This document shows positions 12,374-61,501 of a stretch of DNA of 64,000 bases, one piece after another. The stretch's first letter is position 1, and each line of letters begins with the position of its first letter. Below the pieces are notes generated by a model. The model searched no databases and was not told the DNA's origin. It was given only the letters and a program-made list of their open reading frames with translations. The stretch spans positions 43,590-107,589 of the IMG/VR virus record IMGVR_UViG_3300009431_000980. The stretch is one strand, 5' to 3'. Source of the DNA: a virus. The translations under genes and the position numbers were made by a program.

Positions 12374-15031
12374 TTACGCCAGAGTCGAGGCGTCAGCCTT
12401 AAGTACAACTGTAACCTTTATCTGACGGATTTCAAACACAGGTACCAATGTCAGTGGGATTTCGATGATGCCAACAACCTTCTGTGCCGGAGAAGACTTG
12501 ATCTTAAAGGAATACGCGGAAAGTGACTTTGGTACTCGCTGATTAAGTCTACTTCGGAGAGTAGTCTCCAGTGCCTGTAGTGTAGGCAAATTAGAGACAT
12601 GTCCGAGGAATGGTTCGGCAACAGCGCGAACATCTTTCATAACAGCAGCCACGATGCTGGAGGTTGTCCAGCGTTCGTAATCAGATCCAGGTTCAGCAAG
12701 GGACGGTCCATCAACGAGCCGCGCCCTGTAACCATCGATCCTGGCCCCTATTATTCTCATGTCGCTTAGTGCATCAAGTTGACTACGGCCATCAGCTACT
12801 TTACTAGAGTAACGATAACGAAGACCCTGTGTACCTGTTAAGGAGCTAAGATAAGGGGCTTCTTCTGGCTCTAGAATTGCCAGGTGACCAGCAACTATTG
12901 CTTCGCCCGTAGTTGTATAACGGGAGCCTTTAGCTATAACGATAGGTTCTAGATCAATAGCCATCATATATTTGGAGTCGAAGTTAGCCAGAAAGTTAGC
13001 CGCACGAAGATTATCACTGTAATCAACTACAGTTAGTTTGGACACACGACTGGCAACATCTTTCCTGCTGATGGTATTATTGATACCAGTACCTACTATG
13101 GGTTTGAAACCCATAATACCACGGGCATCTCCATTATAACCGGAGAGAAACTCATCCATAAGCTCATGGAATCCTGCGTTCACCTCTTCTGGAGCGCCTG
13201 TTAGTACATTGTAACCACCTTTTGTGGAGTCAATATATGCACCAGGTGTGATTAAGAGGTCAAAATCAAATGCATCCAGATTATCATAGGCCTCCTTTAG
13301 CTCACTGTAGAGAGTACTATCCGATAAACCAGTACCGGAGGTACCACCTAGAAGAGATTGAGAGCTACTTAAACTGAATTCATCCTGAGCGTATATAACA
13401 TCAAAGCCGATAGTACTATCGCTAGTTCCAAGAGCACCGCCCCCAGGACCTGGTTGTATACCTACACCAGTAATACTAAATTTGCCGGCCTCAGCATCTT
13501 CTAGAGATATTGTGGAGCCGAGCTCATAGTATTGTACCCTGGCGTAACGAACTGCCAAGTTATGTGGTAGGGCTTTACCAAAGATGATTTCCTGACCTCG
13601 CACAAAGTAATCCAGGAAGGAAGATGAAGACTCCTCAACCCCGGCCAGGGTTGACTTCTCATTGAACACTCCAATACATGAATCGAAAGAGATTCTAATC
13701 TCCATTCCGTCATACCTGTCCGGTGTACTGCTTGGGAACGTAAGTGTCGCTTGATCGTTTGCCCAACTAAGGGCCCAGGCTGTGTCGCCTAGATTGGCGG
13801 CCTGCCACGCATTAGGTCCTGCAGAGGGATCCTTCCACTCAACTTTGATAGGATAAGTACCAGAGGAACTTTCTTCCCCTGCTACTGTCCATCTAGTTAA
13901 GCCTTGGAATTCTGCTCCAAGATTGCTTGCAGTGTAACCAGCACCATAATTTTTAGCCGTAGTATAGGCTGATGCTGTACCACTTAAATTACTTGAAGTA
14001 TCGGCATCGGCAATAGCAAGGGGAGCATCGAAGGTAATACTACCAACATCAAGATCAAGTATACCAATGCCCTGATTCCGGACTTTGAAATACCCTTCTG
14101 AAGTTATGGCCAAATCATCCGGGGTTTGAGCTAGCTCGCCTAATGTCCCGTTCTCATCAATAACATTGAGAAGGGTATCAAAACGAGTATCACTCCGGCC
14201 CGCCAGAGGTAGATGTACTGTCGTAGCCTGAGAACTTCCGCCCTCAAGAACCTCGATACCACCATCAGTAATAGCATACACCTTTGACACTCTTACAATT
14301 GGTCTATGAACTTCGTCTATGGTAGTGGTACTCGATGACCCGTCCAGGTAAAGAGTGTCTGCATTTAGATCGCCACTACCGGCCCCATTAAGGGTGATAG
14401 TGGTTTTACTATTTGAGGAAGACACAAAAGCGTCGCCGCTTTTAGCAAATACCTCAAACGTAGCAATCATCTCAGGAACCGATGCAACCAAAATACCATT
14501 CAGATTACTATCAGCATTGATGGCATTTGCCAGTTCAACGACGTTATGCGCATCTACGCCTCCCGCGTTGGAATTTGTCCAGTTATATTTGAAGGTTGAC
14601 CAAATACCAGATACGGGGTTGTATATCTTGATAGCATCATTAGAACTATCCTCGGTGATAACGATGTCATTATATCGACTACCGTGGTAAAGAGCCTCAA
14701 GCTTTAGAGCTACTTCTGAGTTATTATTCTCAATCTCAAGATCAGCCCTCGAAGCAACCAGACCACCTACACGCACACCAGAGATGTACGGAGTTCTACC
14801 GCTATCCATCTGGGCTTGCCATGCCTCATTCATGGCGCGGAGAAGAGTTCCTCTATTGAAGGTACCAAAAATGCTCTCAGCGTGATCCAGATCTCGGATC
14901 GTCACCGATGTATACATTGGCCCATCTACAGCTGTACCTATAATGGTAATATGTTTACTACGATTACCACTACCCTCGGCCCGTTCCAGATTTCCATCTG
15001 TCAAAACACTTGTGATTTTAGGAAGTGCCAT
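12374..15031 (-). CDS. Tail sheath protein
   Basis: 885 residues, long for a sheath protein. The N-terminus (ITIIGTAVDGPMYTSVTIRD, then FGTFNRGTLLRAMNEAW) is the standard contractile-sheath opening. The C-terminal ~200 residues (ARLVDGPSLAEPGSDYERW to FEIRQIKVTVVL) carry the conserved sheath core that forms the interlocking mesh. The extra length lies in the variable middle. AGGAGT precedes the ATG by 10 nt. The tube gene follows downstream, as usual. Sheath contraction drives DNA delivery. Confidence 0.88.
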   Translation of the reverse strand: MALPKITSVLTDGNLERAEGSGNRSKHITIIGTAVDGPMYTSVTIRDLDHAESIFGTFNRGTLLRAMNEAWQAQMDSGRTPYISGVRVGGLVASRADLEIENNNSEVALKLEALYHGSRYNDIVITEDSSNDAIKIYNPVSGIWSTFKYNWTNSNAGGVDAHNVVELANAINADSNLNGILVASVPEMIATFEVFAKSGDAFVSSSNSKTTITLNGAGSGDLNADTLYLDGSSSTTTIDEVHRPIVRVSKVYAITDGGIEVLEGGSSQATTVHLPLAGRSDTRFDTLLNVIDENGTLGELAQTPDDLAITSEGYFKVRNQGIGILDLDVGSITFDAPLAIADADTSSNLSGTASAYTTAKNYGAGYTASNLGAEFQGLTRWTVAGEESSSGTYPIKVEWKDPSAGPNAWQAANLGDTAWALSWANDQATLTFPSSTPDRYDGMEIRISFDSCIGVFNEKSTLAGVEESSSSFLDYFVRGQEIIFGKALPHNLAVRYARVQYYELGSTISLEDAEAGKFSITGVGIQPGPGGGALGTSDSTIGFDVIYAQDEFSLSSSQSLLGGTSGTGLSDSTLYSELKEAYDNLDAFDFDLLITPGAYIDSTKGGYNVLTGAPEEVNAGFHELMDEFLSGYNGDARGIMGFKPIVGTGINNTISRKDVASRVSKLTVVDYSDNLRAANFLANFDSKYMMAIDLEPIVIAKGSRYTTTGEAIVAGHLAILEPEEAPYLSSLTGTQGLRYRYSSKVADGRSQLDALSDMRIIGARIDGYRARLVDGPSLAEPGSDYERWTTSSIVAAVMKDVRAVAEPFLGHVSNLPTLQALETTLRSRLNQRVPKSLSAYSFKIKSSPAQKVVGIIEIPLTLVPVFEIRQIKVTVVLKADASTLA

Positions 15032-18541: not shown

Positions 18542-19885
18542 CTAGTCTACAATAGCTGAGCTATGGTTAAGGGCTGATAACACCTGTTGATTAACATTGT
18601 CAAAGACATAGTTCTTCTCAATAACAACATCGCGAGCAACGGCAATACCCTTACCCTGTTCAAACAGACCCATACCCCAACGTTCCTTTATCTTCATAGC
18701 CCGAATATCGCGTTCCGGATCGTTCCACTCATCAATGGAAGGTTCTTCCTTACTGAGTAAAAGACCGCAGCGTGAACTGTCAGCCATAATGATATCGGCT
18801 ACATGTTTAGTTGCAGAGCCTACAGTAGCTGTCTTATATGTTACGTGTGGCGATACAATCACCCTAAGAGGTGACGGGAGATAGCTTGGAGCAATCTGAA
18901 ATGTGGCCCCTAAAGGATTAAGGGACGTTACAAATGGATTGTTACCAGCTACACGATTATCGTCACCACCCGTTGAGCTGTCGAATCCACGGCCCGTGGC
19001 AGTTGTCCGAGCACCCAGACCGGCAAAGCCGGTTCCAAATGCTTTGGAATAGCTTCCGCCAGGGAGTCTGTTGGTTGCCAGTGTAGCACCTTTAAAAATG
19101 ATCTCACGAGTTTCTGGATCCGTCATAAAGACCTTCCAGGATAATGGATTCATCAATAAGGTGTCAGGCGCAAAACCTCGTAGATAGAGATAGGCATACA
19201 TCTCAAAAATATCATCTACCGTCATGGAGCCATTCTGTGCGCCATCTATACCGCGGCCGGAACAAGAACCTATATCCGCTGTGGATGGAGAGGAATTATC
19301 AAATACATCAATACCCATATCATTTACGAGTTTGATACCATATTCCTCCTTATGTCTTGCAAGAGCTCGGCCAGCCATACGAAGCCAGAGACCGAAAACA
19401 TCAAAGAGATTGTCTTCTATAACTTCTTCAGTAACACGCATCTTCAAGCCATGCTTGGAGATACCTACCTGGATCATGTGACCCTCACCAAAGTTAAATT
19501 CAACCTCTTCATATTCCCCGCCTTCTGGAACCTCAGCCGCATGAAACGCACCTAGTGAGCCAATCTCAACCTGTCGCCCAGGTCCTTCATACCGAATATC
19601 GGTAAACAGATTTGGCACAACAACGAGCTCAGGCTCAATAGCATCTCTAACTACACGGGAAATTGAGGTTTCAATGAACCTTGTTAGGTCCTTACTAGTA
19701 ACCGTGTCAGCAATCTCCGGAATACTCTTTAACTCCTCAGGGATGGAAAAGAGATCATTAAAACCGAGCTGGACAATGGTTTTATCCTCTTTTGGAAGAC
19801 CAACCACGCCATTATTCGTGAAGACATTGTAGACAAGATCATTAAGGATCTGTTCGCCAGTACGGTTTGTACTTAGTATCTTCAT
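18542..19885 (-). CDS. Major capsid protein (HK97-like)
   Basis: 447 residues. Pattern of an HK97-fold capsid: an N-terminal arm, then RQVEIGSLGAFHAAEVPEGG and HMIQVGISKHGLKMRVTEE (E-loop/P-domain region), GRALARHKEEYGIKLVND (spine helix), and an A-domain region with PDTLLMNPLSWKVFMTD. The C-terminal KIKERWGMGLFEQGKGIAVA is typical of capsid proteins of SPO1-like phages. GAGGAG precedes the ATG. Flanked by hairpins on both sides, consistent with separate high-level expression. Confidence 0.8.
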   Translation of the reverse strand: MKILSTNRTGEQILNDLVYNVFTNNGVVGLPKEDKTIVQLGFNDLFSIPEELKSIPEIADTVTSKDLTRFIETSISRVVRDAIEPELVVVPNLFTDIRYEGPGRQVEIGSLGAFHAAEVPEGGEYEEVEFNFGEGHMIQVGISKHGLKMRVTEEVIEDNLFDVFGLWLRMAGRALARHKEEYGIKLVNDMGIDVFDNSSPSTADIGSCSGRGIDGAQNGSMTVDDIFEMYAYLYLRGFAPDTLLMNPLSWKVFMTDPETREIIFKGATLATNRLPGGSYSKAFGTGFAGLGARTTATGRGFDSSTGGDDNRVAGNNPFVTSLNPLGATFQIAPSYLPSPLRVIVSPHVTYKTATVGSATKHVADIIMADSSRCGLLLSKEEPSIDEWNDPERDIRAMKIKERWGMGLFEQGKGIAVARDVVIEKNYVFDNVNQQVLSALNHSSAIVD

Positions 19886-22090: not shown

Positions 22091-23872
22091 TTACCCGCTT
22101 ATGAGGGTTTCAACTAGAGCTAGAAGATCATAGACCTCTAGGTCTTTAGTGGTAATACCACACTTCAGCTTCTTGTTCTGAGATAATAAACACTTACGTA
22201 TTTTTGCCTTGGAACCAGGCCCTTTGTACTTAGCCAAAAGCTGTAATCCGCTGCGCACATTTTGGCATCTATAAGCCGGGAAGCTTTTACGACCTTTCCT
22301 CGGATCCTGAGGGCCACAAAATTTCTTTCCTGCCTTACTAGCGGACTTCTTAGTCTTTTCAGAGAGTTTATCTTTAGCCTCTGTCACAATATCCCATGTC
22401 TCCTCATCTAACCACTGATCCTCGGTCAGAAGATCACCCAACTTATGAGTGTGGGCCTTTGTATCACCATCGGCTGTGGAAGGTAGGATGCGGTTGCCAA
22501 CGACTTCATGGTTATGGGCGACAACATATTCAGTGTCTCCGTTTTCCGCTTCGTTGAGGTCAACAACGTGACGGTGCTTCCTGGCCCCCTTAATGTTGGG
22601 GAAGTCTGTGGTATATCGTTCGTATAGTTCCCACGGGCATTTCTTCTTAGGAACCTTCAGATCCTCGGTAATACTGTGGTTATGTGCCTTTTCTTCACCT
22701 CTGCTTACTGCATCAGATATTTTACTGTTCACAACATCATGGGAATGGCTCAGAACCCAATCTGTGCGACCATTGCCTACCTCATTAAGACGGACAACAT
22801 GATTATGAGCCACTTTACCCTTCTGTCCAACTTTGTTTGTTAGCTTACGAGATTTGGATAGGGCTTCATCTTCCAGCTTCTCCAATTCGTCCATTAACCA
22901 GTCAAGGACCTTAAGATCGTCTTCTGTCCACTCTTCATCATCATCATCATCTTGCCCCTCCTGGGCAAAATGTTCTTCCTGGGCCAGATTGGCCCCCTCG
23001 GGGACAGTAGTGGAGATCGGGGTCACAACACTGTCGGGCCTTAATACCAAACCACCAAGCTCAGCATAACGTGATATATCTCCCTCGATTGCTTCCCAGA
23101 GGGATTTATTAACGATCATATCCTCATCTGGCTTCTCCCGAAAGAGAGTAATTATACCTGAATCAGGTAAAACAACCTGGGTATCAAACACCCAAATACC
23201 TGTGTGCCGAACCTGGTCCTGTTGAGCTGGGGCTGGTTGCTCAGAGTCAGCAAATTGCCAACTCACTACCCGGGCCGCGTGTGTATCAGATTGATCTGCC
23301 GGCGCATTAACAAATGACATCTCCTTATACTGCATCGGACCAATCTTCCAATAAGCAAGCTTTTTCTCAGCGGATTCCTCATCCTCATATACCTGACCCC
23401 TGTTGTGGCCACAGAACTTTCCACCCTTAAGCATATTCACGCCACAAACAGAGCATTCCACAAAGTCTACAGGCTTACCCGCCGTAGAGACGGTTTCATA
23501 ACGGCTATCCATTATTTTAGCCTTAGCATCTTCATCTGTGATGCGAGCATCAAGTTGAATGAACCCACCACGGGCATCCTTTAGGAAGCGAGCATCTTGT
23601 ACACGGCCCATAGGATCCTCGGCCGAAGAAAATAAACCACCGCCTAAATTATGATGTCGTAGGATTGGCTTCTTGTAGGGAGTTGTCCATGTATGGTAGG
23701 ATTCCTTCATAGAATCAGGATCATAGTAATAGAAGTTACTATTAACATATCCTGAGTGTGTAGCATCAATAGTTGTAAGTAAGGCCGCCTTGGGAATGGT
23801 GGTGAATACATAATCCTTATTAGCTTTTTTAGCATCAACCTCAATAGTATCGATAAGTAATTTGTTGTTCAT
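22091..23872 (-). CDS. Capsid maturation protease with His-rich repeats
   Basis: 593 residues. The N-terminal ~200 residues resemble phage prohead proteases: KPILRHHN (candidate catalytic His, about 68-75), DPMGRV, then DSRYETVSTAGKP with the candidate Ser at about 131, and a zinc-like CSVC...FCGH insert (about 141-155). An acidic Asp/Glu stretch follows. Two copies of a histidine-rich repeat (HVVxLNExxNGxT, then HxHxVV, then KAHxH) span about residues 350-490. The Cys/Lys-rich tail is unlike a protease. The repeats and tail may be cleaved or act as an internal scaffold. Confidence 0.68.
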   Translation of the reverse strand: MNNKLLIDTIEVDAKKANKDYVFTTIPKAALLTTIDATHSGYVNSNFYYYDPDSMKESYHTWTTPYKKPILRHHNLGGGLFSSAEDPMGRVQDARFLKDARGGFIQLDARITDEDAKAKIMDSRYETVSTAGKPVDFVECSVCGVNMLKGGKFCGHNRGQVYEDEESAEKKLAYWKIGPMQYKEMSFVNAPADQSDTHAARVVSWQFADSEQPAPAQQDQVRHTGIWVFDTQVVLPDSGIITLFREKPDEDMIVNKSLWEAIEGDISRYAELGGLVLRPDSVVTPISTTVPEGANLAQEEHFAQEGQDDDDDEEWTEDDLKVLDWLMDELEKLEDEALSKSRKLTNKVGQKGKVAHNHVVRLNEVGNGRTDWVLSHSHDVVNSKISDAVSRGEEKAHNHSITEDLKVPKKKCPWELYERYTTDFPNIKGARKHRHVVDLNEAENGDTEYVVAHNHEVVGNRILPSTADGDTKAHTHKLGDLLTEDQWLDEETWDIVTEAKDKLSEKTKKSASKAGKKFCGPQDPRKGRKSFPAYRCQNVRSGLQLLAKYKGPGSKAKIRKCLLSQNKKLKCGITTKDLEVYDLLALVETLISG

Positions 23873-24256: not shown

Positions 24257-26011
24257 CTAATACTCTTCGGTTAGGTGAGGTTCTAGGGTTTGAAATACTA
24301 AATTCACAACATGGGAGGGCATAATACCATTATGCCTTAAAGCCTCACGTAGATGGGTTACCAAATGATCTCGCATTTCTGTATAATCATTAAGTATGGG
24401 TGAGGTAGTAATGGTATGAATAATGGCTTTCTCCTCCTCATACTGAGCAACATCCTCCCAAAGGCTCATATACTCCTCCTTAGTAATTCGCGGCTTGACC
24501 AAACTCTTACCATACTGATTTTCCGGCTGAGCTTTGTTGCTAGCGCTATTTTCCCCGGGGGATAGGAGGTTAGCCTTTGCCTGGGCCAATGGTATTTGCA
24601 CCAGGTGTAAATACATAAGCTTCTGTTCCTCTTCCGATACAATATCCCGGCCCAGCTCCTTACGCAGCTCATCCTGGGTGATACCATTAGTCAGATAAAG
24701 ATTTAGGGAATGAGCTTCGCGCCTAATCTTCTCCTCCAGATCAATTTCCGGTACATGCAGCCGCACCATGTCCTCAATTCCTAGAGTCTCGGGTGTGTAA
24801 CCGGCCTCGAAGAGAAGCTCCTTAATCATTTCCTCTTCAATAGTTTTCTTGATGATCTGCTGAAATTTGACTGTGGTGTACTGCATCTCCGCCGATAGAA
24901 CCTGTGCAGTTGCTTTCGATGAACTTTCGCCTCTCCCCATACCAACATCACTCATACCCAGGCCCGTTAGAATACGCTGGCGCCAATATTCCAAATAAGG
25001 CTCCAGCTCGAGTACACTATCATTCCGGGATATATTAGCTATCTCAGCCCTGCTGGAGGTGACAAGAACAGCGTCATGGGGGAGAGTATCAATCAGATCA
25101 GCAAGCGCATCAAGCTCAGGTTGGGTACCGGGTTTGTCCTTTTCCCCGACCTTGCCATGGTAACGGGGAATAGCAAATTTAATAGCCTGCAAAAGACTTA
25201 GCTCCTCCGTCTCACGAAGGGCTTTGATATCGGGTATCACTGGTACAGCCATGGGCATAGCAAAGAAATATTTACTGGGAGTAGCCGTACGATCCTGGAA
25301 ATGAATAACATTATAAGGGGGCCACTCCTTAGCTGTCTCCTTGGAGACATGAAAGAAGGAGGATTGCTCCATACCCGCTATTACTTGCTTCCAACGATAT
25401 ACATTACCAAAACGATCCCCATCAAACCACATAGAAGTGGGATCGACCACACGATAACCAGCAACAGGGACACGAAGTTTATTGTCAAAGGTTACCCTCT
25501 TTCGACCTCCGGAGGCTTTCATGTTACGTTGTTTAATGACGAAGGCGTTTGCATATACCACGAGGGAATAACTTATCTCCTGAAAAAGCTCCATAGTTGT
25601 CTTGCCTGTTACCTGAGCAATTTGTTCAAAACGCCTACGGATATACTTTGTAGTCTTGGGATTTTGACCTACGAACTCGAAGCCATTCTTCCATATCTGC
25701 TCCACATATTTCTCAATGGCCCTACGAAGTATGGATTCTGTCTGAACAGCATTCTGTACCTGTACAAGATCCCACTCGCTTGCCTCAAAAGATCCCCTGG
25801 TAGCAAACCCTGCCGCCCTTAGTACTGTGGAACGTAACTTCTGCAGAACACTGCTTATGCTTACAGATCTCCCCTTGGGTGTGGGAGTATCGGTAAGTTG
25901 TGTATGAGCACTGACATTATCTTCCTCAATCTGGTGTATTCTTTCTACCACACTAACTTCCCTGGGCCGCCACACCTGCCAGAAATATCTTCTCTCTTTT
26001 ATTGCTGCCAT
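24257..26011 (-). CDS. Portal protein
   Basis: 584 residues. Typical portal features: an N-terminal stem (residues 100-130, ILRRAIEKYVEQIWKNGFEF), a wing/clip region (VAGYRVVDPTSMWF), YNVIHFQDRTATPSKYFFAM, the helix near TGLGMSDVGMGRGESSS, and a C-terminal helical crown. It ends just before the zinc-ribbon gene and follows the gene at 26013. It forms the dodecameric DNA entry ring at a capsid vertex. Confidence 0.8.
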   Translation of the reverse strand: MAAIKERRYFWQVWRPREVSVVERIHQIEEDNVSAHTQLTDTPTPKGRSVSISSVLQKLRSTVLRAAGFATRGSFEASEWDLVQVQNAVQTESILRRAIEKYVEQIWKNGFEFVGQNPKTTKYIRRRFEQIAQVTGKTTMELFQEISYSLVVYANAFVIKQRNMKASGGRKRVTFDNKLRVPVAGYRVVDPTSMWFDGDRFGNVYRWKQVIAGMEQSSFFHVSKETAKEWPPYNVIHFQDRTATPSKYFFAMPMAVPVIPDIKALRETEELSLLQAIKFAIPRYHGKVGEKDKPGTQPELDALADLIDTLPHDAVLVTSSRAEIANISRNDSVLELEPYLEYWRQRILTGLGMSDVGMGRGESSSKATAQVLSAEMQYTTVKFQQIIKKTIEEEMIKELLFEAGYTPETLGIEDMVRLHVPEIDLEEKIRREAHSLNLYLTNGITQDELRKELGRDIVSEEEQKLMYLHLVQIPLAQAKANLLSPGENSASNKAQPENQYGKSLVKPRITKEEYMSLWEDVAQYEEEKAIIHTITTSPILNDYTEMRDHLVTHLREALRHNGIMPSHVVNLVFQTLEPHLTEEY

Positions 26012-26012
26012 A

Positions 26013-27773
26013 TTATTTGTAAACCTTCATATCTTCTAAAGCTTCATATACTTCCCGCAACTCGGCGGATGTTAGGCCCTTTGCACAATCACCAGATACG
26101 CGAGATCTGTAGACGGCATCCCGTGCTGTAGCCGGATCTACCCCCAGCCGCGCAATCATAAACCTTTCCAATTCCGCATCAGTTGGCCCCGATATAAGCA
26201 AATCATTAAGGGTTGGTGCCGTTTCCCCCGTTGAAGGCACTCCAAGAGCCGTAGAGGTTGTTGACGGGGACATAATATTGCGTAACGCAGAATCAAGTTC
26301 ATCTAGATCCTCAAAACCATCACGCATTGGGTTATCTATATAAGTTCCTGCATCTCCACCACCTCTATCTAAACCACCTCTATCTAAACCACCTCTATCT
26401 AAACCACCTGTATCGTCTCCTGCACTTATATTATCATCAGCAGGGATCTCTTCCTTAGTTGTGTCATACATGTCATCTAGGATATCTTCCACGCATAACT
26501 CAGCCCTATATCCTGCATCTATTAAGGCATCCATCAATTGAATAAGAATGGTTAAATACTCAATGACCATTGTTTCCTTGATATCCTCCTGTATTTCTCC
26601 CCCTAACAACTTAGACATACGGGCCTCTGTTTGACGTCGATAACTGATGAGCTGCGCAAGAATACCTTCTCGACCAAAAAGTTTAGAAAGTGCGAGCTGG
26701 ATCAAAGAGAGAAATGGCATACACGATTGTATCTTATACTTTTTCAACATCTTCATAGCCCAGGCGTATATAGATCTCTTAAGTATTCCACATAACACCT
26801 GAAGTGTCCCAAATGTGGCCATAATCAGACTGTCCACCATAATCTTGAAGATGTTCATCGTTAACATCTTAATGCTAAAGTCCTTTTTCTCCGAGATCGC
26901 AAGAGTAAGAATTAACCGAACGCTGCATAATACTGTCCTTACCTCACGCATGGCCTTCCTAACATCTTCATCCAATACTCCGGCCTCCAGAGCCTTCTCC
27001 AACTCTGTTCGTTCAATTTTATCCCAAGCAGCAAGTTGGCGTATAAGACAGCAGACAAACATAACTGGCTCAGTATCCATATGCTCCAGCGATCTTACAG
27101 CGCCTTCAAGAAGGTCTACGGTTTCCTCAAAGACACGTCCGATGACGCCATAGCCAGCATCCTCTATATTTGTTAAGTTTCCTCCAAAACCCTTATGAAA
27201 ATTCGCTATTGGTGTGCCTCTTGGCACACTTAAGGGGGAAGGTATATCAACACCCTTATTCTCATAGAATTCTTTAAGCCAGCTACTCTGAACCCCTCCC
27301 CCCTCAAGGGTTAATTCAATAATTGCGCCTCCACTCACAAACTTCGACTTAACAAACTCAGGTAACCTATCAGAAATACGAGTCTCTCCCTCCACGAAAC
27401 CCACCCTATTATGACCCTCATTAGCCTTCCACTCTTCCTCCATGGCAGTGGCAGAGAAGTCCTTTACACTTATCTTGGTGTTCCCAAGATTGATAGGTTT
27501 GGAGAGCTTAGCAACACCAGTCTCTTTAGAAAAGCCCCAATCCTCACGTAATGTGTCACTGTATGACGCAAGATCATCAAGACGGGTTGTCAGCCAGGTA
27601 TTAATCCTACTCGCGACTGGATTCGGTTCCCCACTACTGGGCCCATGCGTACGCCCTGTCATCTCCTCCTGTAAACCACTAAGCTGGTTCTCCAGAGACC
27701 CTGAAAACTCACTCACAGCAAGATTCCCCAGATCCTCGGCCGCCTTGGCCGCCTTGTCAAAATCATCCGGCAT
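26013..27773 (-). CDS. Unknown structural-cluster protein with GGLDR repeats
   Basis: 586 residues. Helical, with hydrophobic segments around 290-370 (ILTLAISEKKDF..., MVDSLIMATFGTLQVLCGIL) that could cross or bind membranes. A low-complexity linker has three GGLDR copies encoded by a 15-bp tandem repeat. The start overlaps the terminase stop (TAATG) and it precedes the portal gene. Layout resembles the gene at 46026-47300 (acidic Gly/Asp linker and short C-terminal helical domain). Function unknown. Confidence 0.55.
   Translation of the reverse strand: MPDDFDKAAKAAEDLGNLAVSEFSGSLENQLSGLQEEMTGRTHGPSSGEPNPVASRINTWLTTRLDDLASYSDTLREDWGFSKETGVAKLSKPINLGNTKISVKDFSATAMEEEWKANEGHNRVGFVEGETRISDRLPEFVKSKFVSGGAIIELTLEGGGVQSSWLKEFYENKGVDIPSPLSVPRGTPIANFHKGFGGNLTNIEDAGYGVIGRVFEETVDLLEGAVRSLEHMDTEPVMFVCCLIRQLAAWDKIERTELEKALEAGVLDEDVRKAMREVRTVLCSVRLILTLAISEKKDFSIKMLTMNIFKIMVDSLIMATFGTLQVLCGILKRSIYAWAMKMLKKYKIQSCMPFLSLIQLALSKLFGREGILAQLISYRRQTEARMSKLLGGEIQEDIKETMVIEYLTILIQLMDALIDAGYRAELCVEDILDDMYDTTKEEIPADDNISAGDDTGGLDRGGLDRGGLDRGGGDAGTYIDNPMRDGFEDLDELDSALRNIMSPSTTSTALGVPSTGETAPTLNDLLISGPTDAELERFMIARLGVDPATARDAVYRSRVSGDCAKGLTSAELREVYEALEDMKVYK
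26360..26415. repeat. 15-bp tandem repeat (GGLDR codons)
   Basis: The plus-strand unit ACCACCTCTATCTAA occurs at least three times in a row, with degenerate flanking copies. It encodes GGLDR on the minus strand, inside the gene at 26013-27773. Likely slippage-prone linker expansion. Confidence 0.75.
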
Positions 27774-30055
27774 TATATATCTGTTCTCCTTGGAGTGTGG
27801 TGTCTATCTCCCCGGGACCCACGACGTTTGGGGAGAAGCGGATCCCCCTTATCTTCCCGCTCCGGCGGTTCACCTTTCTTAGGCCAATGCCCATAATGAT
27901 TGACTGTATACTCGCCTGCTTGAAATACCTCTGGGTCCAAAGATGTCTTCTTACTACTTACAGGACTAAGTACATTACGTCTGGCTATTGCATGGGGAAT
28001 GAGAGTAGAATCTTCTACCCCTGCACTTTCCATAGCATAATCCCAGGCCATGAAATCATCATGATTAGTGAGGTAAGCATGAACAGCTAACATCCAACTA
28101 TCTAAGACATGATCGTTTCCTTTGGAATAAACCTCCCCCCGGGCCCCTACACGTTCCACAGTATAAGCACGCATCTGGCCCACAAGTCGTTTCTCGTTAA
28201 GTTCTATTGGGTTGCCCAAGACATCAACAGCAGGAATAATAATTCTACCACCCTCCAAAACTCGAACTCCATTACGAACAAGGAAATTCTTAGTCCGCAC
28301 CTTACTGGTACTATTGGTAGTTGGATCAATAACCTCACTAGAGCCGCCAAAATCAACTACCTCCATCCTATCCAGCATCCTGGTAAGGCCGGTACACCTC
28401 ATACCGGTAGGAGAGATACCCCTCTGTATGGATAATCGTAAGAGCTCCCAATTGGTATGCCCGTGGCCATGATCAAAACAGGCATAGTCAATCCTGTACT
28501 TATGTAGAAGAGATAGGATAAAATCAACTGCCACTACGTTGGTATATTCCAGGGCATCAACCCTATCTGCCTTGAAGAGGCGAAGAACCTTTCCCACTTT
28601 CTTAGGTTCTCCGATAAGGCCAGACCTGTACGGGACCATTTCCACCGGCTTATTAACATGCTCCAGGATAACTACATGTACCCCAGTGGCGGCCTCATTC
28701 CAGTCAACCCCCATGGTATAATAGTTCTCCGGATTAAATTGTAGGTCAGGATAGTCATAAACAAATAGAGCCGGCTCAATAAACTTGTTCCGGAAGACGC
28801 CTTCAGTCGCATCACTAAAGAGGGCACAATACTCCCTATTGTATTGACTCTCATCCGCGATGGAACGGGCTAGTGCTTCCTGTTCCGTAGTCCATTCCGG
28901 GCTAGATGAGCTGGGGATGTGATGTTCGTGGAAGTCAAACCTGGGATCGTCCTTGTTGCGACTCAGGTTAAAGAAGAAACCCCGACGGCCGGAGGGTGTA
29001 GAAGAAAATATTACCTGCGTATCCTTGTGGGAGGTAGATATGGGCCAGATATCCTCAATGATTATATTCTCCGGTATATAGTCACCCTCATCAATAATAA
29101 GGTCGTGCGCAGAGTTATGTACAAGGAAACCTCCATTAGCTACTCCAGATATGCGAAAACCCCCTAACTCTTCTGGGGGTGGTGTCATAACAATGAAGTT
29201 GTGTTCCTCTTCCACAGTAAGGTCATAAGTCCTCTCCTCCCCCATCTCCTCAACATTATATGCTCGGCTCCAATTAAGTCCACCATTTATATCTACCACC
29301 CCCACAAAGTGAGACATATTCTGGTCAGTTTTCCAAGTCTTGATATCCTCTAATTCTATAAAACCCTTTCCAAAGATAAAGATCTTGTGCTCAGCAGTAG
29401 CCTTTAGAATCCGACTGGAGGTGGTATTTAGTTGATAGATAAGCTTCTTACCATTATCGTGTATAGCCGTCACCTTTCTAGTCACCATACAAAGATCATC
29501 CAGGTCATAGGAACGAACCCGTTCACCAGCTTTAATTTCCTCAACTGATTTCCAAGATCCGCCTGCCATCCATACCTTTGTTCCTGCGGGGAGACATTTA
29601 CCGCGAACTGAGGAATTACCAACATTACCGATAATACTGGAACCATTCTCAAACCAAATCTCGTGTGGTTTCTTCCGAACATTCTTAATGGAGTCCTTTA
29701 TCTTTGGGGCGTCATATATCATATTACCCATTAGGTTAAATATGATATCCAGCTGGTTCTCGTAGGCGGCTACAACCAAAACCTGACGATAATTATGAGT
29801 GAAGGCTTTCCAAATCGCCTCAATAGCTAAGGTTACGGATTTTCCAACGCGCCTTCCTAGTCGCAGAAGACGATGCTGGTGTTGGTCCCTAAGAATAGTC
29901 CTCTGATAAGGCCGTAAGACGAGAGGCTCAGTTGGATCGGCTGGATTACGGAGGTAAGATTCAGCAAAGAGCGTAGGGTCTATAATGGTCTGGGCCTCCA
30001 GGAATTCGTCTGGAGAGAAACTACCTAGGCTGGATTGATCTTTTCGGTCCGACAT
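27773..30055 (-). CDS. Terminase large subunit, interrupted by an intein
   Basis: 760 residues including a 161-residue intein. The ATPase has Walker A LGRRVGKS (about 66-73) and Walker B DLIIDEGDY (about 318-326). The nuclease domain shows GVDWNEAATG, a DYACFDHGH motif, and a final Asp in GNDHVLDSWMLA. It packages DNA through the portal. The intein (residues 154-314) sits between Walker A and B, giving a mature protein of about 599 residues, normal for a large terminase. It overlaps the upstream gene by 31 nt. Confidence 0.85.
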   Translation of the reverse strand: MSDRKDQSSLGSFSPDEFLEAQTIIDPTLFAESYLRNPADPTEPLVLRPYQRTILRDQHQHRLLRLGRRVGKSVTLAIEAIWKAFTHNYRQVLVVAAYENQLDIIFNLMGNMIYDAPKIKDSIKNVRKKPHEIWFENGSSIIGNVGNSSVRGKCLPAGTKVWMAGGSWKSVEEIKAGERVRSYDLDDLCMVTRKVTAIHDNGKKLIYQLNTTSSRILKATAEHKIFIFGKGFIELEDIKTWKTDQNMSHFVGVVDINGGLNWSRAYNVEEMGEERTYDLTVEEEHNFIVMTPPPEELGGFRISGVANGGFLVHNSAHDLIIDEGDYIPENIIIEDIWPISTSHKDTQVIFSSTPSGRRGFFFNLSRNKDDPRFDFHEHHIPSSSSPEWTTEQEALARSIADESQYNREYCALFSDATEGVFRNKFIEPALFVYDYPDLQFNPENYYTMGVDWNEAATGVHVVILEHVNKPVEMVPYRSGLIGEPKKVGKVLRLFKADRVDALEYTNVVAVDFILSLLHKYRIDYACFDHGHGHTNWELLRLSIQRGISPTGMRCTGLTRMLDRMEVVDFGGSSEVIDPTTNSTSKVRTKNFLVRNGVRVLEGGRIIIPAVDVLGNPIELNEKRLVGQMRAYTVERVGARGEVYSKGNDHVLDSWMLAVHAYLTNHDDFMAWDYAMESAGVEDSTLIPHAIARRNVLSPVSSKKTSLDPEVFQAGEYTVNHYGHWPKKGEPPEREDKGDPLLPKRRGSRGDRHHTPRRTDI
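29114..29596 (-). mobile_element. Mini-intein in the terminase ATPase domain
   Basis: Starts at Cys154 (block A CLPAGTKVWMAGG), continues with block B-like ILKATAEHKIFIF and block F-like RTYDLTVEEEHNFIV, and ends GGFLVHN before extein Ser315. The joined extein reads SVRGK-SAHDLIIDE, a normal terminase sequence. No LAGLIDADG or HNH domain is present, so it is a splicing-only mini-intein. Confidence 0.85.
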
Positions 30056-30816
30056 ATGAAGCTCTTATCAATGAAATTACCAATTTGGGTGCGGACCTCA
30101 ACAAGGGTCTCATATATATCACGATCAACTATCCTATAGCGGTTTATACAACAAGTAACTACAGAATCATCAATATTACTTGTACGGATTAATAAATTTG
30201 GTGATGGCCACCAACCTCCTCTGTTGTTGGTGTTTTCATCAGGCCTCTTATGTAAATTAGCGCCAGGTATACCAACCTCATAAATCCTGCTTTTACCCCG
30301 GCTGGTTGTTTTGTAGGAGCCAGTCCTCGTAAATAAGCTAAATAATCGCTGCTGACTCTCATAATCAATCCTTCTTATAAAGGCAGTTCTCTTACTTTTG
30401 GAGAATGCGTTAAATAAGGCCCCCAGAAAACGATTAAGGGATGCTTCATTTAATTTACCAAGGTAGGAAGGAATTGTGATAGTACCACGCTCGCCCATAT
30501 GCGGACTACGACGTGACAGCTCAACCAGAGAGGCAACAAAGGCATCCACCCACTCCTGACCACGCTCATCCCTCCCATAGTTATTAATTCTGTTAATGAG
30601 ATAGGGATATATTTTTAACCATCGACATCTTTTATATTGCCTAACATGCTCGGCGAAGGATATCCACCCCTTGGCCCCTAAGAGTTCTGTCTCCTCCCCA
30701 CATAAGATACTGCGGCCATTTGAGCTCACAAGACCACAAAGTCGAGCGGATGAACCCTCTTCCACAGGATAAATCTCTATCATTTGCTTTCGCGGAGAAG
30801 AAACCAACCAACCCAA
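30025..30816 (-). CDS. Unknown protein, Hint/intein-like N-terminus; start uncertain
   Basis: 263 residues from a TTG at 30816; an ATG occurs at 30783. The region around 40-60 (SSNGRSILCGEETELLG) resembles block B of Hint (intein/hedgehog) domains. The same frame is open back to 30975 and reads plausibly (IVLADGSFHKAGDLIG, a Hint block A-like strand), but has no ATG, GTG or TTG there. Translation may begin at an unusual codon near 30951 (AGGAGG lies 7 nt before an ATC) or by +1 shifting from bS21. Function not recognised; it overlaps the terminase start. Confidence 0.5.
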   Translation of the reverse strand: MGWLVSSPRKQMIEIYPVEEGSSARLCGLVSSNGRSILCGEETELLGAKGWISFAEHVRQYKRCRWLKIYPYLINRINNYGRDERGQEWVDAFVASLVELSRRSPHMGERGTITIPSYLGKLNEASLNRFLGALFNAFSKSKRTAFIRRIDYESQQRLFSLFTRTGSYKTTSRGKSRIYEVGIPGANLHKRPDENTNNRGGWWPSPNLLIRTSNIDDSVVTCCINRYRIVDRDIYETLVEVRTQIGNFIDKSFICRTEKINPA

Positions 30817-30919
30817 ACCCTCAACAGGACCACAACCAATTAAGTCGCCGGCCTTGTGAAAAGAACCGTCGGCGAGTACAATCTCCTGCGCGGCCGAGAT
30901 TAACAGCCTTTCACCTTCC

Positions 30920-31099
30920 CTACCTTTTTCGTCTTTTGGTGCTGTTACGATCCCTGTGCCTCCTAGCTGATGGCTTCAAATAATAGCGGTGATCAAGAAC
31001 ATCTCTAATGATATTAGCTTTATCTACTTTCCTCCTGAATCTACGGAGGGCTTTAATTATGTCTCTTTCTTCCTGTCCCTTAACCTCAACAATTACCAT
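30920..31099 (-). CDS. rpsU: Ribosomal protein bS21 homologue
   Basis: 59 residues. ALRRFRRKVDKANIIRDVLD followed by RRYYLKP-like HRYYLKPSARRHR and a basic tail matches bacterial bS21 (core ALRRFKR, then F/YxKP). The start has AGGAGG 5 nt upstream. bS21 sits next to the anti-Shine-Dalgarno end of 16S rRNA and affects initiation. Phage copies are known from environmental phages and may exchange into host ribosomes. Its 3' end overlaps the open frame leading into the gene at 30025. Confidence 0.85.
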   Translation of the reverse strand: MVIVEVKGQEERDIIKALRRFRRKVDKANIIRDVLDHRYYLKPSARRHRDRNSTKRRKR

Positions 31100-31107
31100 A
31101 TGTCCTC

Positions 31108-32244
31108 CTATCTATGATAGAACTGTGCTTCATTTCCTAGGAAGCGATTACTGGGCTGTACCTTCGCCTGATAGATGGCCTGAACCGCACGTTGTCTCTC
31201 TGTGGCAGCTCCGGGGGTCATGAAGGCCCCTGGAAGTCTGCCTGTACTGATCTCCAAGGAGCGGAACTCATCCAGCAGGGTAAGGGCTGAGGCTGCAACG
31301 CCTCCGGCCTCTCTTATCATGGCGGAGCCCAATGGCTTAAGGGCTAACCAGGCCAGGCTGGCCCAACTCCATGCGGCGAATCCTCTTAGAGCAAGTCCGG
31401 CAGCCTTACCTGCAAAACCTTTGCCCAATTTTATAGCTAAGGTACTTGCCTTTTTACTGGATGCACTAACAATGGCCCTGTATGTACCACCCTCCTCAAC
31501 AATTCGTGCCCCTTTAAGTACATCATCCGCGTCAAATCCCTCTCCCGCGGCCCGGAGTATCTTTCTCACAACGCCCTTAGGAGCCTCACGGTCGCCAATC
31601 ATTGAAACTAACTTACGCCTAGCCGGTCCCCTAACCAATTTGTCTTTATCCATGTGTCTTGTAATCTTGGCCGCTGTTTTAGCGCCCCACTTCCTACTGC
31701 CCCTTTTAGCATCCTTCTTTACCCATCTAACTTCCCCCTTAAATATATTCTTCCTATAACCCAGGTCTGTCTCTAATGCATCATCAATTAAGTCCGCGAC
31801 GCTTCCGAGAGAGACTACAGACCGCCCCGGGTCAACTATACCTGCCAGGCCCAAGGAACGTGCATGCTGTAGAGCTACTCTAGCATTATCACCTAATAGG
31901 GAACCTGCCAGGGGAGTACGTGCCACACCCTCAACTGCTGAAAGAATTATATTACCGGCGCTGAGGTAGCGACTGGGCCCAGTTACTCCTGTGAGAAGGG
32001 TCTTATAGCCCCACATCCCGCCAAACTTGAACTGACTTAACCCTGCCCCGCTCGGGCCTAGCCCTTGGAATGGGTTAACTAACATACCCATCCGGAGGGA
32101 CTCAAGCGGATTTACAAAGAGAACTGAGAGGGGGTTAAAACCAGCGGCAACATCAGTAGCAATACCACCCGCACCGGCCGCCGCAGCACCTATCAGTGCC
32201 GGGTTGGTCCAACTGGCGTTGGTTGCCTGTTTAATTGAGGGCAT
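31108..32244 (-). CDS. Basic Gly/Ala-rich probable internal virion protein
   Basis: 378 residues with several Ala/Gly-rich hydrophobic stretches (residues 15-35, about 285-320) among Arg/Lys-rich helices. No signal peptide. Together with the genes at 32532 and 33255 it forms a cluster of membrane-seeking proteins, suggestive of internal or ejection proteins. Not recognised; function inferred from composition only. Confidence 0.55.
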   Translation of the reverse strand: MPSIKQATNASWTNPALIGAAAAGAGGIATDVAAGFNPLSVLFVNPLESLRMGMLVNPFQGLGPSGAGLSQFKFGGMWGYKTLLTGVTGPSRYLSAGNIILSAVEGVARTPLAGSLLGDNARVALQHARSLGLAGIVDPGRSVVSLGSVADLIDDALETDLGYRKNIFKGEVRWVKKDAKRGSRKWGAKTAAKITRHMDKDKLVRGPARRKLVSMIGDREAPKGVVRKILRAAGEGFDADDVLKGARIVEEGGTYRAIVSASSKKASTLAIKLGKGFAGKAAGLALRGFAAWSWASLAWLALKPLGSAMIREAGGVAASALTLLDEFRSLEISTGRLPGAFMTPGAATERQRAVQAIYQAKVQPSNRFLGNEAQFYHR

Positions 32245-35991: not shown

Positions 35992-37446
35992 TTACCTCTT
36001 TTGGTTACTGTGCATATCTTGGGAAGACAGTGGAGTAATACCATCCAGGGAAATGGTGTCAACTAGAGCCACCCAACTAGGAGTGATACTCCCCTTCCAA
36101 TTAAACCCCTTTACCATAAAACGTCTGCCGGCCTTAGATACTTCTATTCTCTCTTTCCTGGGCATATCATAAATACGCTTTAGAGTCTTTACGGCATCAT
36201 CTATATCAGGAACTGCCCTACCCAGGTTAGTTACAGGTTCCTGTATAACTTCTATAGGTCGAATAAGCTGTAATACTTCCCCGCCCCAGGAGGGTGGGGC
36301 TGAATAATCAAGTGCGGTGGTAGGAACACCGGCGGAAAGGCTTTCAGCCAGGGTCAGGGCAAATCCTTCTGCAGATGACATATGCAGGCTCACATCAGCC
36401 ATATTGTATACCTTATTAAGTTCCTTATCATCTGGCCCTGTTCCAACCTTCACCTGTGGATTAACCATAACCCAATCATAAGCATCGTAGATACGAATAA
36501 GCTCATCCATATTCCACCCTACATCCTTGTAAGGCATATGTAGTAGGAGTCGAACTTTGTCCTTGTCTTCCAACCCCTCATCCTTAAATTGCCTTATCGT
36601 TCGAAATAGGAAGGGAATACTCTTCCGGGACATATTTCGGCCCACATAAAGTACTAGAAAATCATCATCTAAATTGGTTACGCGATCCCATATACCAGAT
36701 CCAGAGGAACGACCAATCTCTATAAAGCCAGGGGTATTTCCTGAACGGATGCGGGTTCTTTGTGTACTACTCAAAGGATGAAAACAATCCGTATCCACAC
36801 CATGTAAAATGGTTTTACAGGCTACTCCACCATCATCAACCATCTTATCGACTTCTTCCGCGGCCCAGTTACACATAGTAACTGGGTAATCCACATCAAG
36901 GTAAAGTTGCCTCCAATCAAGACGGTGACCATTCTTGATGGTGTAACGAGGTAATGGAGCACCATCAACGGCAGCATACATAACATGTTTGAAGGAGCCC
37001 CTAAAGATACACCCCTCAATACTGGCACACATCCATTGATCCCCTATGGATATAACGATCTCCGGTTGAAAAATAGATACTACCAGATCTATGCTCATCT
37101 GACCATATATATCACCAGACAAACGTTGGCCGTGGGGACAATATGGAAAGTCTTTACCCACCGCCTGCGGATAACCTGTCTCCTTATCAACCTGCAGATA
37201 AGAGACTTTCATATCTCTGTATACCTCACTGATGTAGTCCCCTCGTCCGCAACACTTCTTATGATCCTTGTAAGTGGTAAATGTTTGCCAGGGACGATGT
37301 AATAAATTCTCGCTCCTGTGGAACCAGGCTAACTGGGCTACCTCATGACCTGCTTTGTGCAAGGCCTGCATTATATCTGTGGCTACACGACTATACCCTG
37401 TACGTATGTTGGTAGAATCAGAAGATATTAAGACGCGCCTACTCAC
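35992..37446 (-). CDS. Glycosyltransferase family 4-like
   Basis: 484 residues of GT-B type. LLHGVDTDCFHP (hinge H-G-V-D), LVLYVGRNMSRKSIPFLFRT (nucleotide-sugar domain start) and SSAEGFALTLAESLSAGVPT (the E-x7-E donor motif) are present. Overlaps the next gene by 8 nt. It belongs to a cluster of four glycosyltransferases likely decorating virion proteins, DNA or host surface; the sugar is not predictable. Confidence 0.78.
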   Translation of the reverse strand: MSRRVLISSDSTNIRTGYSRVATDIMQALHKAGHEVAQLAWFHRSENLLHRPWQTFTTYKDHKKCCGRGDYISEVYRDMKVSYLQVDKETGYPQAVGKDFPYCPHGQRLSGDIYGQMSIDLVVSIFQPEIVISIGDQWMCASIEGCIFRGSFKHVMYAAVDGAPLPRYTIKNGHRLDWRQLYLDVDYPVTMCNWAAEEVDKMVDDGGVACKTILHGVDTDCFHPLSSTQRTRIRSGNTPGFIEIGRSSGSGIWDRVTNLDDDFLVLYVGRNMSRKSIPFLFRTIRQFKDEGLEDKDKVRLLLHMPYKDVGWNMDELIRIYDAYDWVMVNPQVKVGTGPDDKELNKVYNMADVSLHMSSAEGFALTLAESLSAGVPTTALDYSAPPSWGGEVLQLIRPIEVIQEPVTNLGRAVPDIDDAVKTLKRIYDMPRKERIEVSKAGRRFMVKGFNWKGSITPSWVALVDTISLDGITPLSSQDMHSNQKR

Positions 37447-39379: not shown

Positions 39380-40369
39380 CTATGACTCCTTTACCGTCTT
39401 TCTAACCTCCGTCAACTGTTTTATGTCATTTTCCACCATTCCAGACACTAGCTCCTTGAAGGAGACGGTTGGCTCCCAGCCTAGTAGGAGCCTGGCTCGT
39501 GCGGCATCACCACACAGAACATTAACCTCGGCTGGTCTCATAAAGCGCGGGTCCTGCTTGACATACGGCTCCCAATCAGTTATGCCAACACACCTAAACG
39601 CCTCAGATAGGAAGTCCCTGATGGAGTGGTTTTCGCCTGTCGCTATGACAAAGTCCATCGGCTTCTCCTGTTGCAACATCATCCACGCCGCCATCATATA
39701 GTCCCGAGCATGCCCCCAGTCCCTCTTGGCGTCCAGATTACCAAGAGTAATGTAACTGTCTAGGCCAAGTGCTATTCTGGCCACTCCGTGTGTGATCTTA
39801 CGGGTGACAAACTCCAGACTCCGACGTGGTCCTTCGTGATTAAACAGTATTCCCGAGCAGTTGAACATATCATAACTCTCACGATAGTTAACCGTAATCC
39901 AGTGGGCGTAGAGTTTGGCTACACCATAGGGTGAGCGGGGGTAGAAGGGGGTATTCTCATTGGCTGGGTTCTCTACCATCCTGCCAAACATCTCTGAGGA
40001 GCTGGCCTGATAGAACTTCACCGGCTCTCCATACTCACGTACTGCCTCCAGGACCCGGAGGGCCCCAAGACCCGTGACATCACCTGTGTACTCGGGGGAG
40101 TTCCAGCTCTCCTTGACAAATGATTGGCTAGCCAATTGGAAAACTTCATCGGGTTCGGACTCCCGCACGGCGCGGTAGATGGAGTTTTGATCCGCCAGGT
40201 CGCCGGTCAGCCAGTTGATCTTATCTTCTATGTGGGCCACATTGTCCCGCCTCTTGCGGGACGCCCTGCGCTCCAGGCCGAAGACCTCGTACCTCTTCTC
40301 CAGTAGGATCTCAGCAAGATAACTGCCGTCCTGTCCCGTGATTCCCGTTATTAACGCTCTCTTCTTCAT
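39380..40369 (-). CDS. gmd: GDP-mannose 4,6-dehydratase
   Basis: 329 residues of the extended short-chain dehydrogenase family. ALITGITGQDGSYLAEILLE (G-x-x-G-x-x-G NAD(P) site, residues 4-23), QASSSEMFG (catalytic S/T), PRSPYGVAKLYAHW (Y-x3-K) and RDWGHARDYMMAAWMMLQQ are diagnostic. It converts GDP-D-mannose to GDP-4-keto-6-deoxymannose, precursor of GDP-rhamnose, fucose or related sugars. Stop and next ATG overlap. It feeds the adjacent glycosyltransferases. Confidence 0.92.
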   Translation of the reverse strand: MKKRALITGITGQDGSYLAEILLEKRYEVFGLERRASRKRRDNVAHIEDKINWLTGDLADQNSIYRAVRESEPDEVFQLASQSFVKESWNSPEYTGDVTGLGALRVLEAVREYGEPVKFYQASSSEMFGRMVENPANENTPFYPRSPYGVAKLYAHWITVNYRESYDMFNCSGILFNHEGPRRSLEFVTRKITHGVARIALGLDSYITLGNLDAKRDWGHARDYMMAAWMMLQQEKPMDFVIATGENHSIRDFLSEAFRCVGITDWEPYVKQDPRFMRPAEVNVLCGDAARARLLLGWEPTVSFKELVSGMVENDIKQLTEVRKTVKES

Positions 40370-44123: not shown

Positions 44124-44506
44124 TAGAGCCACCCCTCTCCGGTCCAGATACGTTCCTTTTCATAGATCATCTGCTTCTCATACTCATGCCTCCTTGCACG
44201 TATCCAAGCTTCATCTACGGGTTGGAAGCAAAGGATAGAGCGCTTGATACGAAGTGGGTCATGATAGATATACTCTGATACTATTTGCCTTTCCGGATCG
44301 CCTACACCAATCAAATACCATTTTTGCCACTCACGGTCGAAGATTAATTGAAAGATAATCTCCTCCTCTTCCTTAAGAGCGCTCATTTCTGTATCGGTGC
44401 ACTCATACACGGTAGGGAAATAGGTATCCATCTCGTAGAATGATTTAGCTAAGACCATAATGGGTTTGGGAAGGCTATCAATGCGCTTAATCTGCTTCAC
44501 TGTCAT
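44123..44506 (-). CDS. Unknown protein
   Basis: 127 residues, charged, alpha/beta (IIFQLIFDREWQKWYLIGVG). Overlaps the ClpP-like gene by 20 nt and is coupled to the next gene. No recognised domain. Confidence 0.5.
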   Translation of the reverse strand: MTVKQIKRIDSLPKPIMVLAKSFYEMDTYFPTVYECTDTEMSALKEEEEIIFQLIFDREWQKWYLIGVGDPERQIVSEYIYHDPLRIKRSILCFQPVDEAWIRARRHEYEKQMIYEKERIWTGEGWL

Positions 44507-45053
44507 TCTCCACAGGATCAGTTATTGCCTGCCAGAATGGAAAGGAGGTAAGGATATTATGAACTATGCCTATCTCCTTAGCATCATCCGCAACAAAGAA
44601 TGATTCTGCTAGGGCTATAGTAGTAAACTCATCCTCCGGTATACCTAAACGCTCCGCCATTATCCTGGTGGAATGTTCAAACTGTCTCCTAGCAAAGCTT
44701 GCGACATCAAACATGGTGGTGGGAGTACTATCCACCTCATTCGACCACCGTGGGGGATGGAGAAGAAACACTGAATTAGGAAGGGCATAGCGTTCGCAAC
44801 CTCCTATGTAAGCACAAAAGGCAGAGCTGTATACAGTACCAATGGCATAGGTATGAATGGGTGCCTCCGCCAGGGTAAAGCAATCAAATAAGGCCATACC
44901 ATCATTAAAATGGCCTCCACCGGAATTAACCATAACTTTGATGGGAGCCTTTGAATCCTCCCGCAACATATCCTCCATATCCTTGATAGTCTCAAGAACC
45001 AGAGTCTCGTTTATCTCACCAATAAGTGCAATCGTCCTGTTCTTATCCTCCAA
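44487..45053 (-). CDS. ClpP-like serine protease, TTG start
   Basis: 188 residues from a TTG with AGGAGG 10 nt upstream. ClpP fold markers: VMVNSGGGHFNDGMALFD (oxyanion Gly-Gly), GTVYSSAFCAYIGG with the nucleophile Ser at about 76-77, HP in VFLLHPPRW (catalytic His about 98), and FFVADDAKEIGIV (Asp about 154). It is distant from the capsid protease gene, so its substrate is unclear: capsid assembly or host proteins are possible. Confidence 0.78.
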   Translation of the reverse strand: MEDKNRTIALIGEINETLVLETIKDMEDMLREDSKAPIKVMVNSGGGHFNDGMALFDCFTLAEAPIHTYAIGTVYSSAFCAYIGGCERYALPNSVFLLHPPRWSNEVDSTPTTMFDVASFARRQFEHSTRIMAERLGIPEDEFTTIALAESFFVADDAKEIGIVHNILTSFPFWQAITDPVENDSEAD

Positions 45054-47895: not shown

Positions 47896-48258
47896 CTAAG
47901 CGTTTCGCCTTACGTTCTTACGTCGCTTAATGGTATAGTGCCTCTTACAAAGGCCCTTGGCATGATGGGGTTCATCACACCCATGCTCACTACAATTACC
48001 ACCGACCCCTTTATTAGGGGGAGGTTTGGTTGGGCCCTTGCGCCTTACCTTACTATATTCAAAACCTGCAGCCTCCACAGCCTCCATCCACGAGCCAAAA
48101 TAACGTACAGCGGCTTTCCAGAGGGCATTGTTATTCTTCTTTACCCAGGTGGAGTAAACCTCCTCCAGCTGCTGTATCTCTCGTATTATACGTGGTTTAT
48201 TCCACCGCCTACGAGAATATCCAAAGATTCTAACCGCTTTTCTTCTTCCTCTTCTCAT
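47896..48258 (-). CDS. DNA-binding-like protein with zinc knuckle
   Basis: 120 residues. The N-terminus (KPRIIREIQQLEEVYSTWVK to WMEAVEAAGFEYSKVRR) follows the homing-endonuclease-associated repeat pattern (I-x-x-L, then FGSWxEAxxAAG). The C-terminus has CSEHGCDEPHHAKGLCKRHY, a Cys/His zinc motif common in phage HNH-related proteins. No HNH catalytic residues are visible. Possibly a DNA-binding remnant of a homing enzyme or a regulator. Confidence 0.6.
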   Translation of the reverse strand: MRRGRRKAVRIFGYSRRRWNKPRIIREIQQLEEVYSTWVKKNNNALWKAAVRYFGSWMEAVEAAGFEYSKVRRKGPTKPPPNKGVGGNCSEHGCDEPHHAKGLCKRHYTIKRRKNVRRNA

Positions 48259-60770: not shown

Positions 60771-60980
60771 ATGAAAACTAAAACAAGTATGACAAGCAAG
60801 ACGGCCAAAAACAAGGCAGCCCTGATCTTGAAGAAGGCCAAGGGGATGAAGAAGAGGATCCCCTGGCTGAAGAAGGTCCTAAAACATGACAAGGTCATGA
60901 AGGTGCCTGTCAAGCTGGCTGTAATACAGCTGGCTAATAAAAGGTGGGCCGCCCACCTGAAAGAGGAGCTGGTCCAATGA
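60771..60980 (+). CDS. Small Lys-rich protein
   Basis: 69 residues, about a third Lys/Arg, helical ([20 protein letters not shown]). Its stop overlaps the deformylase ATG (ATGA). Possibly nucleic-acid binding. Confidence 0.48.
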
Positions 60981-61501
60981 ACATCATAACAAACCTGGAC
61001 CTGCTCAAAATCCCCTGCAAGGAGGTGGGGGAGGAAGTAGGTCACGAGATTGGTAAAAAGCTCCTGGAGAAGCTCCAAACCCATAAGGCAGGAGTCGGAC
61101 TGGCCGCGAATCAGGTAGGCCTCGACGCCTGCGTGATAGCAATGGCAGTCAAGGAACCTCTATACCTGATTAATCCCGTGATTACAGAGCGGGAGGAAGA
61201 GACCTATCTCCGGAAGGAGAGCTGTCTCTCACTCCCGGAGGTTAAGTTTATAACAACCTCCAGATCCCGGGGGGTTGTTGTGGAGGCTGACAATATTCCC
61301 GGGGCCCTATACTTCTACGCCGGGAAGGATAATCTATCACAGCTGGAGACCGCTTGCATCCAGCACGAAGTGGATCACATCAACGGGATAACAATATATG
61401 ACCGCCAAGCGAAAGGCAGCGCTTCCCACATGAAGGTGGGAAGGAATGAACCGTGCCCCTGCAATTCTGGGAGAAAGCACAAGAAATGCTGCGGCGTATA
61501 A
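60977..61501 (+). CDS. def: Peptide deformylase with C-terminal SEC-C motif
   Basis: 174 residues from the ATG at 60977 (overlap with the upstream stop). All three deformylase motifs are present: [10 protein letters not shown] (about 39-48), ESCLSLPE (about 79-86; usual EGCLS) and [10 protein letters not shown] (about 130-139), giving the metal ligands Cys and two His and the catalytic Glu. The last 25 residues ([19 protein letters not shown]) are a SEC-C zinc motif, not part of ordinary deformylases. Phage deformylases probably speed maturation of phage or photosystem-like proteins in the host; the SEC-C tail may bind ribosome or SecB-like partners. Confidence 0.9.

Follow-up and report, generated by a model that had tools for sequence, protein, structure and literature searches.

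Why a phage should carry its own copy of ribosomal protein bS21 among its head and packaging genes, and what this copy might do to the ribosomes of its host, are the questions raised by the 64,000-nucleotide stretch of viral DNA analysed here (the window). That bS21 is the ribosomal protein most often carried by phages, as the original prediction for this locus held, agrees with its reported share of 88% of viral ribosomal proteins (PMC6375957), yet its effect on the choice of mRNA is so far a published hypothesis (PMC9723584). The window phage offers a good test case: its early and late genes visibly differ in their Shine-Dalgarno arrangements, which gives a specific, testable prediction.

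Identity and translation signals of the bS21 gene

The 59-codon open reading frame predicted at 30920..31099 was found exactly there, on the minus strand, which the prediction had not specified; it begins with ATG, shows an in-frame coding signal and encodes the 59-residue protein MVIVEVKGQEERDIIKALRRFRRKVDKANIIRDVLDHRYYLKPSARRHRDRNSTKRRKR. The assignment to bS21, which had been left to be judged by a profile match, was borne out: Pfam PF01165 matched with 46 bits (cut-off 27, E 4.3e-12), covering positions 2-55 of the 55 in the profile, the NCBIfam equivalog TIGR00030 matched with 50.8 bits (cut-off 28.95), the PHROG match was PHROG 21469 (ribosomal protein S21), and bS21 chains from solved ribosomes were matched with a best E of 5.6e-6. 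The profile match is beyond chance; the curated Pfam and NCBIfam cut-offs were exceeded across the full domain, and the product is a short basic protein with both the A-L-R/K core and the Y-x-K-P motif.

A single bS21 gene is present on the 107,589-base record and likewise on a 147,988-base contig that also spans this region (the 148-kb contig). The bS21 stretch is identical in three contigs and so does not stem from an error of a single assembly. Being identical, the known copies also offer no variation in which selection on the gene, purifying selection included, could show, and this gives some room to the view that bS21 is merely carried along or decaying and serves no function at present; that view is nevertheless scarcely credible, given the intact reading frame, the strong and well-spaced Shine-Dalgarno sequence, the full-length profile match and the coding composition.

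The AGGAGG of the original prediction was located at 31104..31109 (minus strand), 4 nt before the bS21 ATG. It overlaps the TAG stop (31108-31110) of the gene directly upstream, and this overlap suggests translational coupling of the two genes. The upstream gene (31108..32244, minus strand, 378 aa) has a coding signal and is of unassigned function, with no Pfam or PHROG family match. An autoregulatory hairpin over the bS21 start was considered and rejected, the structure around the Shine-Dalgarno sequence being within chance expectation (no notable hairpin, fold z 0.26), and local sigma-70 promoters and terminators were dismissed as well, their count not exceeding that in shuffled sequences. 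Two more AGGAGG copies lie within the bS21 coding sequence, each made up of adjacent AGG AGG arginine codons, and probably reflect codon usage.

Location of bS21 in the late gene block

The order of genes on the minus strand is the 378-aa gene, bS21, an orphan ORF, terminase large subunit, portal, probable protease, capsid and tail sheath. The terminase large subunit (27773..30055, minus strand, 760 aa; phrog_2, E 4.9e-32; PF03237 and PF14890), the start of which at 30055 lies one gene downstream of bS21, is interrupted by a mini-intein at about 29110-29600, on the same strand, recognised by its TIGR01445/TIGR01443 intein ends. There follow, also on the minus strand, the portal protein (24257..26011; phrog_9232, E 3.2e-41), a probable head maturation protease (22091..23872; phrog_18299, E 3.3e-5), the major capsid protein (18542..19885; PF25209, 52.5 bits; phrog_3922) and the tail sheath protein (12374..15031; phrog_16991, E 5.3e-35), the last of which points to a contractile-tailed phage. 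The bS21 gene is within about ten genes of the terminase, portal, protease and capsid genes and, as judged from these annotations, belongs to the late genes of a phage with a contractile tail. The phage origin and late structural setting proposed at the outset are therefore upheld by terminase, portal, capsid and tail sheath genes that all share the strand of bS21.

Viral bS21 near head genes has already been published (PMC6375957, PMC9723584), with a core structural gene no more than ten genes from bS21 in 388 of 900 bS21 phages (Chen et al., PMC9723584). The freshwater-lake Bacteroidetes phages of Chen et al. (2022, PMC9723584) are contractile-tailed, as is the window phage, and have bS21 a few genes from terminase, prohead protease, portal and capsid, as in the window; their bS21, however, is opposite in strand to the structural genes, whereas in the window it is co-directional with them on the minus strand. 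A large tailed phage genome is likewise the setting of the bS21 described from Pelagibacter phage HTVC008M and from uncultivated viruses (Mizuno et al. 2019, PMC6375957). ClpP-type genes have been reported near phage bS21 (PMC9723584); the ClpP-like protease of the window phage is encoded at 44487-45053 (minus strand), distant from the head genes. The window bS21 extends a known class by one divergent lineage, its gene type and location having been described in many phages.

Proposed role of the phage bS21

The reading that we favour, with a probability of roughly 0.6, is by analogy that of a phage bS21 that is taken up into the 30S subunits of the host in the late phase of infection and tilts initiation towards phage late mRNAs. 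Translated, as its sequence context indicates, from its own strong AGGAGG inside the late head/packaging block, the phage homologue would join host 30S subunits at the late stage, and subunits carrying it would then favour the phage late mRNAs at initiation. Both steps are probable because bS21 is late-assembling, loosely held, exchangeable and located beside the anti-Shine-Dalgarno tail of 16S rRNA; exchangeability and a position near the anti-Shine-Dalgarno have been described, as has a bS21 homologue that alters gene expression in Francisella (PMC9578407). Viral bS21 has been reported to be co-transcribed with structural genes, and a preference for phage transcripts late in infection has been proposed (PMC9723584), a model that the window bS21 fits by sequence and position. 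The difference between late and early initiation signals in the window phage would allow such a selection of mRNAs. Two observations count against this reading, namely that the only viral bS21 tested in vitro, that of a Pelagibacter phage, was incorporated into E. coli ribosomes and left them almost inactive, with activity down to about 5% (PMC6375957), and that the late spacing shift described below is absent from four other bS21 phages.

An RNA-binding role outside the ribosome, for instance within an RNP or as a protein packaged into the virion, would find precedent in OLE RNA, mentioned in one report as an extra-ribosomal partner of bS21 (PMC12054373), and virion packaging has been raised as a possibility (PMC9723584). 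We nevertheless consider such a role improbable; no Rfam RNA of the OLE kind was found within the window, and nothing in the data points there.

Relatives of the window bS21 and the host of the phage

When a bS21 alignment was used to scan viral contigs, 340 relatives emerged, and 80 of them were retained. The nearest full-length viral match was L025, about 54% identical, higher identities being confined to short segments. In the tree, which has 71 columns, little resolution and the window protein on a long branch, the latter groups with L025, L028, L040, L044, L080, L094 and L099 at 97/79 support. This IMG/VR group (L044/L052 and L094/L099 included) shares with the window protein the core II-x-x-x-x-D-x-R-x-Y-x-KPS and differs from it in a mostly longer C-terminus. 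In the loci examined, bS21 is near portal or capsid genes, as in the window; when 14 neighbour proteins from the window were compared with the relatives' loci, no convincing homologue was found, with one weak phosphoesterase match (E 0.001). Related bS21 genes thus appear in head blocks that share no other recognisably related genes. A tblastn search of phage records gave a Salmonella-labelled record (35%) as its sole match, which places the window bS21 far from the bS21 of deposited phages.

The proposed inference of the host by bS21 alignment failed, as the genome scan returned only a Nitrospiraceae bS21 (32% identity over the full length) and a short partial Nonomuraea match. Terminase relatives, about 22-28% identical, came from mixed hosts and likewise gave no host assignment. 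A Bacteroidetes host seems unlikely, because strong Shine-Dalgarno sequences precede the early genes and because the aromatic residue by which the bS21 of that phylum hides the anti-Shine-Dalgarno tail is missing: at the equivalent of F. johnsoniae Tyr54, a position extrapolated from the alignment to the 7jil chain (query residues 1-47 against chain residues 1-45), the window protein has approximately R56, and no Y, F or W follows Y40. By contrast, the phages of Chen et al. (2022, PMC9723584) keep an aromatic residue at Tyr54; their complete genomes have a GC content of 31-34% against 46% for the window contig.

This divergence bears on the simpler idea that the phage merely tops up a loosely bound and possibly limiting protein, so that overall translation stays high in the late phase of infection without phage mRNA being favoured. 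The exchangeability of bS21 (PMC9578407) favours such a supply, and the window protein retains the bS21 core, with A17, L18, R23, K27, Y40, K42 and P43 common to the window, E. coli, B. subtilis and Nitrospiraceae proteins in the alignment. However, L41 stands where the EKP motif has a conserved E, the N-terminal region diverges too, and a protein serving plain supply would be expected to track the bacterial sequence more closely than the 32% of its best full-length bacterial match. Simple supply is accordingly a possible but rather unlikely explanation, and a phage bS21 that redirects initiation late in infection is preferred.

Initiation signals of early and late genes

Gene calls came from a simple script, and early or late status was assigned by strand and gene content: genes of the 148-kb contig counted as late if they lie on its plus strand past 31 kb, and as early if they lie on its minus strand. 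The best Shine-Dalgarno-like motifs of the late genes lie at an aligned spacing of 9-13 rather than 3-8 in a ratio of 23:14, against 5:23 for the early genes (Fisher p = 4e-4), the shift having been seen first and then tested on the same data. Among genes whose start is pinned down by a stop codon upstream in the same frame, the corresponding ratios were 9:9 and 1:13 (p = 0.02). Early genes of the window phage have strong Shine-Dalgarno sequences with a median aligned spacing of 7. In late genes (window 2714-34911, minus strand; loci L015-L022 of the 148-kb contig), the motifs stand 9-13 nt, as aligned, from the ATG behind AT-rich spacers, for example in the capsid gene.

The late-type shift was absent from four other bS21 phages, in which genes near bS21 showed 59 canonical and 5 long spacings, the phages compared all carrying bS21; no effect of bS21 is therefore established. 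Long spacing as a general feature of bS21 phages was ruled out by these four phages together with the 80 bS21 loci, where the spacing peaks at 4-7. The shift may be peculiar to this lineage, or its cause may lie elsewhere. It is very doubtful that the phage bS21 retunes ribosomes to weak, long-spaced (9-13 nt) late signals, with the early genes and bS21 itself keeping canonical signals for unmodified ribosomes; if this were true, a switch from early to late expression would be built into translation initiation.

The orphan reading frame downstream of bS21

The gap between bS21 and the terminase gene holds the frame that had been described as lacking a normal start codon, and this description proved accurate, since no ATG, GTG or TTG precedes the TTG at 30816 in this frame, which stops at 30025. 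A CTG start is the ordinary, likely explanation. The CTG at 30904-30906 is in frame, 4 nt past the candidate Shine-Dalgarno sequence AGGTGA (30911..30916, minus strand), and the aligned spacing of 7 equals the early-gene median. Coding-like composition begins at about the bS21 stop: the 33 codons that precede TTG 30816 beat stop-free shuffles (p = 0.001), and the part overlapping bS21 scores low. Because the coding signal starts where bS21 stops, the orphan ORF is probably a real gene, most likely starting at this CTG (30025..30906, minus strand, 293 aa) and overlapping the terminase start by 31 nt. A +1 frameshift at the end of bS21 (CGA AAA AGG TAG), fusing bS21 to the orphan ORF, is permitted by the sequence and is the weaker alternative, the CTG start with AGGTGA being the simpler reading.

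The orphan ORF has no recognisable relatives in Pfam, PHROG, NCBIfam or PDB, and its single-sequence AlphaFold model was unusable (pLDDT 38.8). By eye it resembles Hint blocks; a decayed intein/LAGLIDADG remnant was unsupported, the hhalign score against the eight inteins of this phage being 16.1, compared with up to 22.0 for shuffled copies and 81-82 for two of the phage's LAGLIDADG ORFs.

Other features of the phage

At 5994-12001 (minus strand), LAGLIDADG ORFs, five in all, alternate with short ORFs that resemble exons, and Rfam recognises one group I intron there (8365-8607); the region probably represents a gene, or more than one, interrupted by several introns. A 4393-aa ORF, running from window position 2709 off the left end (63491-76669 on the 148-kb contig), apparently contains five inteins, judged from intein profile pieces with boundaries set by eye. 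Outside the window, a 1390-aa ORF at 139783-143952 of the 148-kb contig, by eye a ribonucleotide reductase, has two inteins. GDP-mannose 4,6-dehydratase and two glycosyltransferases (39380-40369, 35992-37446 and 48255-49376, minus strand) form a possible sugar-modification set. A second translation-related protein of the phage, a peptide deformylase with a C-terminal SEC-C motif, is encoded at 60944-61501 on the plus strand.
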